Of a stretch of DNA of 64,000 nt, positions 41,200 through 43,661 are shown one piece after another. How positions within the stretch are numbered: the stretch's first letter is position 1; every line of letters begins with the position of its first letter. Source of the stretch: Microbacterium marinum (GTDB taxonomy: Bacteria > Actinomycetota > Actinomycetes > Actinomycetales > Microbacteriaceae); the NCBI RefSeq assembly GCF_014204835.1, contig NZ_JACHMD010000001.1:1116001-1180000 (forward strand), given 5' to 3'. Position numbers and translations under genes: made by a program. The notes beneath the pieces are model-generated. The model searched no databases. It was not told the DNA's origin and saw nothing but the letters and a program-made list of their open reading frames with translations.

Positions 41200-41205
41200 T
41201 AGAAT
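41200..41205 (+). promoter_or_regulatory. -10 box of the leader ORF and CNNM operon
   Basis: TAGAAT is 10 nt before the ATG of the leader ORF at 41216 and about 80 nt before the first CNNM gene, giving the operon a translated leader. Confidence 0.45.
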
Positions 41206-41215
41206 CGTCCGCACA

Positions 41216-41284
41216 ATGGACGACCCTCCCAGTAGACCTTCGCCCCACCGACCCTTCCCCCTGATGAACGGGGGTGACGTGTGA
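41216..41284 (+). CDS. Proline-rich leader peptide upstream of the CNNM genes
   Basis: A 22-codon frame starting ATG GAC GAC CCT CCC and reading MDDPPSRPSPHRPFP for its first 15 residues. It has six Pro in 22 residues, with acidic residues directly before the first two. Its TGA (41282-41284) shares a base with the ATG of the CNNM gene (41284) and overlaps the alternative GTG at 41281. Its last codons run through a CCCCC/GGGGG hairpin that contains the Shine-Dalgarno of the CNNM gene. Acidic/proline-rich starts of this kind in MgtL of Salmonella cause Mg2+-dependent ribosome pausing or release. The regulatory reading is inference. Confidence 0.55.
   Translation: MDDPPSRPSPHRPFPLMNGGDV
41257..41274 (+). 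promoter_or_regulatory. Hairpin sequestering the CNNM ribosome-binding site
   Basis: CCCCC (41257-41261) pairs with GGGGG (41270-41274) around an 8-nt loop. The G-run with the following TGA is the best Shine-Dalgarno for the CNNM gene, so the hairpin hides it unless ribosomes moving through the leader ORF open it. Confidence 0.5.
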
Positions 41285-42612
41285 TGGACTACGTCATGTT
41301 GGGCGTGGGGCTCCTCCTGACGATCGGCACCGGTCTGTTCGTGGCGAGTGAATTCGCGCTCGTCAACCTCGACCGAGCCGACCTCGAAGCGCGGCGCGCG
41401 GCCGGCGAGTCCCGCCTGTCGCTGACGATCAACGCGCTGCGGATCACGTCGACGCACCTCTCGAGCGCGCAGCTCGGCATCACGCTGACCACGCTCCTCA
41501 CCGGTTACACGATGGAACCGGCGCTCTCGAACCTCCTCAGCCCCGTGCTCGCCGCGTGGGGGATTCCTGAAGAGGCGTCGCGACCGATCTCGACCGTGGT
41601 GGCGATGGTCGTCGCGACCGTGTTCTCGATGATCATCGGCGAGCTCGTCCCGAAGAACTTCGCCCTCGCCGTTCCGCGGCAGACGGCGAAGCTCGTCATG
41701 GGGTTCCAGACCGTCTTCACGACCGTCTTCCGGCCGGCGATCGTGCTGCTCAACGGCAGCGCGAACGGCGTTCTGCGCTCGATGGGCATCGAGCCCAAGG
41801 AGGAGCTGTCGGGCGCTCGAACCGCCGAAGAGCTCTCCAGCCTCGTCCGTCGATCCGCGAGCGCCGGCGTCCTCGAGGAGGACACCGCGTCGCTGCTGGA
41901 TCGCACCCTCACGTTCTCGCGTCTCACGACGGCCGATGTCATGACTCCGCGGCCGAGCGTGCACGCCGTGGCATCCGATGACAGCGTCGAAGACGTCATC
42001 CAGCTGGCTCGGCGAACGGGCCACAGCCGCTTCCCGGTCTATGCCGAGTCGATGGACGACATCACCGGGATCGTGCACCTCAAGCAGGCCGTGTCCGTGC
42101 CGCGTGAGCGCCGCGCCGACGTTCCCGCTGCCGCCATCGCCGAGGAGCCGCTGCGCGTGCCCGAAGCGGTGCACCTCGACGGACTGATGTCGGAGCTGCG
42201 CTCCCGCGGGTACCAGATGGCGATCGTCGTCGACGAGTACGGCGGGACGGCCGGCGTGGTCACGCTCGAGGATCTCGTGGAGGAGATCGTCGGCGAGGTG
42301 CTCGACGAGCACGACCGCAGCCGCGCCGGCGTCGTCCGCGCTGCCGGGTCGATCATCTTCCCGGGTGACCTTCGCCCCGACGAGGTGCTTGACCGCACCG
42401 GCATCCGTGTGCCCGAAGGCGATGTCTACGACACCGTCGGCGGCTTCATCATGGCCACGCTCGAGCGCATCCCCGCCGTCGGCGACGAGATCCAGATCGA
42501 GGACGGCACGATCGCGGTGCAGCGCATGGACGGCCGTCGCGTCGACCGAGTGAAGTTCGTGCCCGTCCCCGTGCCGGCGGGTGCCGAGGTCGAAGGAGGT
42601 GATCGTCGATGA
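41281..42612 (+). CDS. CNNM/CorC-family transporter-associated protein, full length (DUF21-CBS-CorC_HlyC)
   Basis: A 443-residue membrane protein of the CNNM/CorB (HlyC/CorC, 'hemolysin') family, prokaryotic members of which transport or export Mg2+. The DUF21 membrane domain (residues 1-190) has [35 protein letters not shown] and [17 protein letters not shown] pair follows ([32 protein letters not shown]), then a CorC_HlyC domain (about 345-430). Start GTG 41281 or ATG 41284; both overlap the stop of the leader ORF. The stop overlaps the second CNNM gene (ATGA). Confidence 0.88.
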
Positions 42613-43661
42613 GCGATTGGGCCGGTATCGCCTGGTTGGTCGTCCTCCTGGTCGCCAACGCGTTCTTCGTCGGCGCCGAGTTCGCCGTCATCTCCGCGCG
42701 CCGATCGCAGATCGAGCCGCTCGCCGAGAAGGGGTCCCGCGCCGCCAAGACCGCGCTGTGGGCGATGGAGCACGCGACGCTCATGCTCGCAACCTGTCAG
42801 CTCGGCATCACGATCTGCTCGCTGCTGATCCTGAACGTGTCGGAGCCGGCGATCCACCACCTGCTCGCGGTGCCGCTCGAGTTCCTCGGCTGGCCGTACG
42901 CGGTCGTCGACGTCGTCGCGTTCGTGATCGCCCTGCTGCTCGTGTCGTACCTCCACGTGGTGTTCGGTGAGATGGTCCCCAAGAACCTCGCGTTCTCGGT
43001 GCCTGATCGCGCGGTGCTCCTGCTTGCGCCGCCGCTCGTGTGGGTCTCGCGGGTCTTCCACCCCGTGATCGTCGCGCTCAACTGGATCGCGAACCACATC
43101 GTCCGCCTGTTCCGCGTCGAGCCGAAGGACGAGGCCGCCTCGACCTTCACGCTCGACGAGGTCGCCACGATCGTGAATCAGTCCCGAATGGAGGGCGTGC
43201 TCGATGACGCCTCCGGCGCGGTCGCCGCGGTGGTCGAGTTCACCGACAAGAAGGCGGGCGACATCGCCGTCCCGCTCGGGGAGCTCGTGACGCTCCCCGA
43301 GACGACCACGCCCGACGAGATCGAGCGCGCCGTCGCGCGTCACGGATTCTCGCGGTACGTGATCGTCGACGAGGAGGGGATGCCGCTCGGCTACGTCCAC
43401 CTGAAGGATGTCCTGCGCGCGGCGGAGGGCCCCGATTCGGAGGCGAACGTCGCCCGTCCGATCAAGCCGAAGCGCATCCACCACATGCTGCCGATCAGCG
43501 AGACCACCGACCTCGAGGACGCACTGGCGCTCATGCGACGCTCCAGCCGTCACCTCGCGCAGGTGCGCAACGCCGCCGGCGACACGACGGCGGTGCTGTT
43601 CCTGGAGGACATCATCGAGGAGCTCGTCGGAGAAGTGCACGACGCCACCCGGCGGTTCTGA
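42609..43661 (+). CDS. Second CNNM-family protein, short form (DUF21-CBS)
   Basis: A 350-residue paralogue of the preceding protein, coupled to it by an ATGA overlap. The DUF21 domain has FFVGAEFAVISARRSQIEPL, LATCQLGITICSLLI and GEMVPKNLAFSVPDRA. It ends after the CBS pair (HGFSRYVIVDEEGMPLGYVH, VLFLEDIIEELVGEVHD) and lacks the CorC_HlyC domain. The two proteins may form a heterodimer, since CNNM proteins work as dimers. Paired long and short copies are common in actinobacteria. Confidence 0.87.
   Translation: MSDWAGIAWLVVLLVANAFFVGAEFAVISARRSQIEPLAEKGSRAAKTALWAMEHATLMLATCQLGITICSLLILNVSEPAIHHLLAVPLEFLGWPYAVVDVVAFVIALLLVSYLHVVFGEMVPKNLAFSVPDRAVLLLAPPLVWVSRVFHPVIVALNWIANHIVRLFRVEPKDEAASTFTLDEVATIVNQSRMEGVLDDASGAVAAVVEFTDKKAGDIAVPLGELVTLPETTTPDEIERAVARHGFSRYVIVDEEGMPLGYVHLKDVLRAAEGPDSEANVARPIKPKRIHHMLPISETTDLEDALALMRRSSRHLAQVRNAAGDTTAVLFLEDIIEELVGEVHDATRRF

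Follow-up and report, generated by a model that had tools for sequence, protein, structure and literature searches.

A conserved, putatively near-leaderless ORF overlaps a CNNM-type gene in Microbacteriaceae and is a candidate ribosome-based Mg2+ switch

The translation of a CNNM-type gene in Microbacterium marinum is almost certainly coupled to that of a short leader ORF, which starts at or near the predicted 5' end of the mRNA and terminates on the CNNM start codon. We found this leader in a window of 64,000 nucleotides, the whole stretch of DNA analysed here (contig NZ_JACHMD010000001.1), and its MDDPP start recurs before CNNM genes at nearly all of the Microbacteriaceae loci compared. The best explanation of the whole, and a finely balanced one, is a coupled leader on which ribosomes pause or drop off, with Mg2+ as the likeliest signal. 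The elements of the locus are the following, in window coordinates.

41200..41205, + strand: -10-like element TAGAAT, 3' end 10 nt upstream of the leader ATG
41216..41284, + strand: leader ORF, predicted to be leaderless or nearly so, with 22 codons, six prolines and an MDDPP start
41216..41236, + strand: conserved leader start M-D-D-P-P-S-R, with the rare codons CCT (Pro4), AGT (Ser6) and AGA (Arg7)
41242..41248, + strand: GCCCCAC in the leader, complement of the GTGGGGC in CNNM codons 8-10
41257..41274, + strand: arms of a weakly conserved local hairpin over the CNNM Shine-Dalgarno, CCCCC (41257-41261) and GGGGG (41270-41274), with an 8-nt spacer
41270..41277, + strand: CNNM Shine-Dalgarno GGGGGTGA, within the leader ORF
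41282..41286, + strand: TGATG, in which the leader stop (TGA, 41282-41284) overlaps the CNNM start (ATG at 41284)
41284..42612, + strand: CNNM/CBS/CorC_HlyC gene, alternative start GTG at 41281
41305..41311, + strand: GTGGGGC in CNNM codons 8-10; codons 7-9, GGC GTG GGG, are nearly invariant synonymously
42609..43661, + strand: second CNNM/CBS gene, overlapping the first

This anatomy agrees with a preliminary description of the locus, which had named TAGAAT upstream of a 22-codon ORF (41216-41284) with MDDPP and six prolines, a leader stop overlapping the CNNM start (TGATG), and a CNNM-type gene pair. The first gene of this pair encodes the CNNM transmembrane domain, a CBS pair and CorC_HlyC, and is followed by the second CNNM gene; the top PDB sequence matches of its product are entitled 'Magnesium and cobalt efflux protein CorC' and 'Hemolysin, contains CBS domains'. 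The upstream neighbour belongs to the IMP-dehydrogenase/GMP-reductase family, and no Shine-Dalgarno is seen upstream of the leader ORF in the window. Among the 56 gene-like starts in the window, an overlapping leaderless ORF of this kind is found at the CNNM start only. A looser pattern (MDD only) has two sites in the genome of the window, the CNNM leader and a 107-codon ORF starting with MDDEVF. The same genome holds two more CNNM-like genes (L002 and L004), and this pattern search found no MDD leader before either of them. An inverted repeat, CGTCC/GGACG, which flanks the leader ATG (41206-41222), was set aside because relatives do not keep it, as judged by eye.

Within Microbacterium, we collected 115 CNNM loci (35 from 119 genomes searched and 80 from contigs, with overlapping origins), which hold 94 distinct leaders. 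MDDPP is the start in all 115 loci, and MDDPPSCRRSPHRP is the most frequent opening of 14 residues. The leaders range from 21 to 31 codons, and despite these different lengths 113 of the 115 overlap CNNM by 1 nt. The distance between the two ATGs amounts to 65, 68, 71, 77, 89, 92 or 95 nt, all of which keep the frame; the sole exception, 72 nt, comes from two records that probably represent one genome (L010, L041). A stop/start overlap and a frame kept through evolution, the marks of a coupled leader, are thus both found. In a scan for leaderless ORFs, 115 of 115 true CNNM starts scored, compared with none of 4466 false anchors; since, in addition, CNNM is the only case among the 56 starts in the window, the leader exceeds what chance would provide.

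Beyond Microbacterium, our set comprises 66 loci from 48 other genera of the family. Their leaders start with MDDPP in 53 cases and with MD[E/H/A]PP in six, four have other starts (MDDDH, MDDHSP, MNDDH with a GTG start, and MEPPS), and the scan returned none for three, although one of these, L205, has MDDPP and lacks a -10 match. In L202 and L205, which represent two genera, a DDPP-like leader start, a TTG-start GDPPS form in the case of L202, lies close behind the apparent stop of the upstream gene and without a -10 match, and these leaders may be translated from operon mRNA. Altogether, MDDPP or MD[EHA]PP is present in 174 of the 181 family loci, Microbacterium included, and with it the N-terminal acidic and/or Pro-rich nascent chain that is expected of an intrinsic ribosome destabilization (IRD) sequence. 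The MDxPP leaders outside Microbacterium span 14-63 codons and overlap CNNM by 1-13 nt in 57 of the 61 loci scored, where the nearest in-frame ATG, GTG or TTG was taken as the CNNM start. Under a stricter scan, 51 of the 66 loci were positive, as were 2 of 1614 false anchors. Across 168 MDDPP loci, the -10 element ends 10 nt before the ATG in 136, 9 nt in 27, 8 nt in three, and 7 and 11 nt in one each, so that TAnnnT ends 9-10 nt before the ATG in 163 (with spacings of 6-12 nt allowed in the search), implying a predicted 5' end about 2-4 nt ahead of the leader ATG. The preliminary description had suggested asking whether a Pro/acidic ORF with a TGATG overlap is conserved at the peptide level across Microbacteriaceae; this is the case, given MDDPP in 115 of 115 and 53 of 66 loci and the third-position bias described below.

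We also searched for the motif independently of the gene. We detected a pattern of a -10 element, 7-11 nt and ATGGAYGAYCCYCC in 156 of the 249 family genomes, spread over 53 of 78 genera; the reversed pattern was absent from all of the family genomes. Among the sites listed, 122 were checked, which leaves aside genomes without a listed CNNM position as well as G168, where the leader sits at the end of one contig and CNNM at the end of another. 106 of them are located 28-177 nt upstream of the previously located CNNM of the genome; of the remaining 16, the 15 that were retrieved all overlap the start of another CNNM gene, a second paralogue as judged by translation, while the sequence of the last was not retrieved. 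Four more sites (L264, L265, L267 and L268) are each followed by CNNM. As a CNNM gene follows nearly every checked site, the paralogue included, the motif tracks the gene family and not a place in the genome. This bears on the simplest alternative, namely that coupling is constitutive, the leader merely delivers ribosomes, and MDDPP is just a good leaderless start: such a general start should precede other genes as well, yet 121 of the 122 checked sites precede CNNM. We consider this alternative improbable, although the overlapping arrangement is indeed kept more widely than the peptide.

In other families of the order, a leaderless ORF ends at the CNNM start in 23 of 42 loci (false anchors, 3 of 1158), and in other orders of the class in 2 of 21. 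The overlapping leader thus seems older than the MDDPP start. In the family that we label f14 (11 matches, of which L274 was omitted as it had no upstream sequence), all 10 scanned leaders, four of them within the 42, end on or at most 2 nt from the CNNM start position with different peptides, which again would suit mere coupling; nine of the 10 start with MSS and five contain DPPS. In family f6, the CNNM copies most similar to that of the window carry MDDPPSHMP.. or MDDPSHKP.. leaders (five loci, two read by eye), and locus L304 has MDDPPRV. The main f6 CNNM genes have leaderless leaders of a different kind, with an M[DE]S start in 12 of 23 and a later EPSS or EPSR in 13 of 23 (L283, L285-L287, L290, L291, L293, L294, L297, L298 and L300-L302; L289 yielded no leader). 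The codons of this later stretch, GAG CCY TCY AGT/AGA, resemble Microbacterium DPPS in peptide and codons alike. The motif [DE]P[PS][SRP] is present in 18 of the 33 f6 and f14 leaders, compared with 2.4 expected from residue shuffling; this excess is no independent test, because the motif was picked after viewing the leaders.

The conservation of the leader start lies in its peptide. We compared codons 2-5 in 41 of the 48 non-Microbacterium genera, using leaders that match M[DEN][DEHAN]P (which drops L190, L195, L211 and L222 with other starts, and L202, L205 and L221 without a leader by scan), and counted 0, 1 and 53 deviations from the consensus at codon positions 1, 2 and 3, respectively; choosing leaders by a peptide pattern favours the consensus residues of codons 2-4 but leaves codon 5 unbiased. 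As nearly all changes fall on third positions, the leader peptide start is, by this substitution pattern, under selection. The same excess of 53 to 1 across 41 genera makes it very improbable that what is conserved is a nucleic-acid element, i.e. a protein or RNA binding site or a structured RNA, in which the ORF is incidental. Such an element would account for the nucleotide-level constraint and the rare AGT and AGA codons in Microbacterium, for the invariant GGC GTG GGG in CNNM and for the GAGCCYTCYAGT-like stretches in f6 leaders; against it, the reading frame is maintained across length changes, Microbacterium encodes Ser6 by AGT and 23 of the 41 other genera by TCT, and Rfam covariance models gave no gathering-score match in four loci and a single chance-level match, on the opposite strand, in the window region. 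An M-box riboswitch was likewise not matched by Rfam in the window region or in the four loci. Selection on a conserved N-terminus would also be expected of a micro-protein working in trans, but beyond the N-terminus the leaders differ in sequence and in length, with 14-63 residues in other genera, and the peptide stops on or close to the CNNM start; we regard this explanation as scarcely credible.

The codons of the leader start are unusual as well. In Microbacterium, Asp2 and Asp3 keep the common GAC (92 and 94 of 94 leaders) while codons 4-8 are rare, which is a further point against mere coupling; 13 of the 41 other genera have GAT at Asp2. Ser6 is AGT in 90 of 94 Microbacterium leaders and TCT in 23 of the 41 other genera, both of them rare codons, and codon 8 is AGA in 66 of 94, compared with 0.2%. 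Relative codon adaptiveness in Microbacterium is 0.97-1.0 at codons 2-3 and then drops, with values of 0.05, 0.10 and 0.013 at codons 4, 6 and 8, respectively, whereas that of the gene body is 0.76. Most other leader positions also use rarer codons than the gene body, with the deepest Microbacterium dips at codons 4, 6 and 8. Given this leader-wide rarity and the GAT at Asp2 elsewhere, an A+T-rich 5' end accounts for part of it; in the coupling-only explanation, the rare codons may hold the 5' end unstructured, and the leader codons do lower structure. To judge from their usage, the rare Pro4, Ser6 and Arg codons likely form a slow-decoding patch.

The main rival to Mg2+ is a pausing switch that senses proline or EF-P status at the PP pair (CCU/CCC), whether through the activity of EF-P, the charging of Pro-tRNA or the modification of tRNA-Pro. 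In its favour, 82 of the 94 Microbacterium leaders and 29 of the 41 other genera use CCT for Pro4, compared with 1.7% of the Pro codons in CNNM gene bodies, and Pro5 is CCT or CCC in 93 of 94 Microbacterium leaders, with CCG in 8 of the 41 other genera. One of the four aberrant leaders, MEPPS, retains PP, and a passage in PMC8092293 reports that Salmonella mgtP responds to charged tRNA-Pro. However, the other three (MDDDH, MDDHSP and MNDDH) lack PP at codons 4-5 and keep the acidic residues, in a scan that favoured acidic starts; furthermore, the Ser and Arg codons are rare too, and the downstream gene belongs to a Mg2+ transporter family. We deem this rival unlikely. That the signal is Mg2+ we regard as possible, leaning slightly towards doubt, and that the MDDPP start acts via ribosome pausing or destabilization as probable.

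The preliminary description had further proposed that the CCCCC/GGGGG hairpin hides the CNNM Shine-Dalgarno and acts as the gate. The arms exist and can pair, but the Shine-Dalgarno is not unusually inaccessible and coevolution is weak. Its unpaired probability is 0.27, compared with 0.29 in 44 control gene starts, while the CNNM start codon is somewhat more buried (0.21 compared with 0.41 in the controls). The z-scores of the fold against shuffled sequences are +0.55 (41212-41300), -1.49 (41250-41300) and -0.40 (41204-41330). Native pairs of leader tail and Shine-Dalgarno exceed chimaeras in stability by a small margin (z -1.95; 93 of 94 leaders), and tails of species with a GGGGG Shine-Dalgarno fold about 3 kcal/mol worse with GGAGG ones, which leans towards the hairpin; permutations of the tail-SD complement were not significant (89 of 94 leaders). 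Given this control-like accessibility, weak coevolution and z-scores within chance, we reject a sequestering hairpin as the main conserved feature. What stands of the proposed Mg2+ leader is thus the conserved, peptide-selected Pro/acidic ORF that overlaps CNNM, without the Shine-Dalgarno hairpin as its gate.

A second candidate structure is a long-range helix, in which RNAalifold on the 94 leaders pairs the leader GCCCC with the CNNM GGGGC. In 83 of the 94 leaders, those that have the extension CCCC[AG]C, GTGGGGC in CNNM pairs with GCCCCAC in the leader at a mean probability of 0.84; the other 11 lack this extension. CNNM codons 7-9 (41302-41311) read GGC, GTG and GGG in 95, 97 and 97 of 97 Microbacterium genes, unlike most other conserved Gly and Val codons of CNNM, which vary; as CNNM codons 1-14 are no different from the rest of the gene in their mean top-codon share, this constraint is confined to codons 7-9. 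When codons were randomized for 60 of the 94 leaders, those of CNNM turned out to stabilize the region (z -1.4) and those of the leader to destabilize it (z +1.16), with z +0.31 for both together. Because both arms are nearly invariant, there is no covariation by which the helix could be scored or confirmed, and its support consists of the synonymous invariance of codons 7-9 and the stabilizing CNNM codons, nothing else. Relatives outside Microbacterium do not retain the helix, as judged by eye. A strong sequestration of the CNNM start after drop-off finds no support, since the accessibility of the Shine-Dalgarno equals that of controls and the leader codons destabilize the region.

The coupled leader with ribosome pausing or drop-off would work as follows. 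The near-leaderless ORF, whose anatomy and conservation are observed, would hand its ribosomes to CNNM through the stop/start overlap, and Asp-Asp-Pro-Pro-Ser with its rare Pro, Ser and Arg codons would be an inherent site at which elongation is slow or unstable. Ribosomes that pass DDPPS would traverse leader segments able to pair with the CNNM start region, open it and terminate on the CNNM start, whereupon CNNM would be translated. After drop-off at DDPPS, the downstream RNA may fold over the CNNM start region and keep CNNM low. Mg2+ stabilizes the ribosome, and low Mg2+ destabilizes it. Low Mg2+ would hence lead to drop-off with CNNM OFF, and high Mg2+ to read-through with CNNM ON, which is the coherent reading given the effect of low Mg2+ on ribosomes. 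This sign is also the expected one because the literature describes bacterial relatives of the CNNM/CorB kind as exporters of Mg2+, which the CNNM of the window likely is, by analogy, as well; provided that Mg2+ is the signal, we are fairly confident of it.

Several observations count against this model: MDDPP has two acidic residues only, the rare codons extend past codons 4-8, Asp2 is GAT in 13 of the 41 other genera, the main f6 CNNM leaders lack the MDDPP start (M[DE]S in 12 of 23), and among the 66 family loci, four have other starts and three none by scan. As for the export sign, an exporter or tolerance role among bacterial CNNM relatives is indicated for MpfA in PMC5122736, while animal CNNMs, which count against it, are reported in PMC8726484 to stimulate cation entry via TRPM7. 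More tentatively, leaderless overlapping leaders may sense Mg2+ order-wide by drop-off at an acidic-Pro-Ser rare-codon patch and drive exporters, with a sign opposite to that of MgtL and with the same physical sensor as in enterobacteria but an independent origin; we hold this generalization to be rather doubtful.

The leader combines features of several known systems. The cysteine attenuator uORFs of mycobacteria are leaderless short ORFs that gate a downstream operon; like the leader described here, they are actinobacterial, but they are polycysteine and sense amino acids. MgtL, the leader of mgtA in E. coli and Salmonella, is likewise a very short ORF with an acidic/Pro start (MEPDPTPLP) before a Mg2+ transport gene. 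In E. coli, its codons read gaa cct gat ccc acg cct ctc cct cga cgg aga; in a make-up similar to that of the leader in the window, CCT and CCC Pro codons are followed by Arg codons (CGA CGG AGA), which are rare in E. coli. MgtL acts on transcription, by termination in the untranslated stretch before mgtA, and turns the importer ON at low Mg2+. Whereas it ends 140 nt before mgtA in E. coli, the leader of the window is near-leaderless and overlaps CNNM; a short acidic/Pro-start ORF is found before a Mg2+ transport gene as in MgtL, and the untranslated gap of MgtL is absent, with an overlap in 113 of 115 Microbacterium loci. The expected sign, ON at high Mg2+, is the opposite one, and we draw the likeness without a claim of homology. 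The translation of MgtL is destabilized under low Mg2+, as cited in PMC12421838.

Similarly, according to passages in PMC8092293, MgtQ of Salmonella mgtC-mgtB is a short ORF whose acidic residues lower its own translation, with alternative stem-loops over the ribosome-binding site of a Mg2+ transporter gene; unlike the leader described here, it is intergenic, has eight codons, and its reduced translation favours mgtB, an importer, at low Mg2+. In YoaL-YoaE/MgpA of E. coli and Salmonella, the leader ORF overlaps a CorC-domain gene (by 13 nt for yoaL/yoaE in E. coli) that is induced by high Mg2+, and replacement of the YoaL start by a stop lowers MgpA translation (in part of PMC12421838); YoaL differs in its 52 residues (MDRHRRHFSIRP...), the lack of a DDPP start and the TerC-type target. 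In the same source, Salmonella CorC and MgpA are described, in passages, as induced by high Mg2+ and most probably involved in Mg2+ efflux; CorC is said to carry a ribosome-destabilizing N-terminus, and ON at high Mg2+ is the sign suggested for it (PMC12421838). Finally, the M-box/uORF loci pe20 and rv1535 of M. tuberculosis are actinobacterial and Mg2+-linked, with a conserved small uORF and a translational platform, but their Mg2+ sensor is a riboswitch aptamer, their uORF carries a Shine-Dalgarno of its own, and the genes serve uptake (passages in PMC12810186).

Among the titles, opening parts of abstracts and passages of the open-access literature searched, we found no description of an MDDPP/CNNM leader. 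To our knowledge, ribosome drop-off as a Mg2+ sensor has been described for a few enterobacterial import genes. Leaders that respond to ribosome behaviour and coupled uORFs are thus known already, whereas the leaderless, exporter-linked and overlapping form appears to be new. If the interpretation is true, the drop-off principle also governs export, in leaderless mRNAs, with reversed logic and throughout one actinobacterial family. The leader would then offer a small model for changing acidic residues, proline pairs, rare codons and coupling independently of each other, and a handle on the regulation of bacterial CNNM genes.

Two further observations concern the spread of the leader. A record titled Planococcus sp. 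APC 4015 (L093) encodes a CNNM that is 80% identical to that of the window and has the same leader type; it is probably a mislabelled or contaminated actinobacterial contig. The second CNNM paralogue of some Microbacteriaceae (L250-L263 and L266) has its own MDDPP leader, mostly with His beside or replacing Ser. In L258 and L259, this leader (MDDPPSHMP) is nearly identical to those of the family f6 copies, a likeness that suggests transfer or an old duplication.
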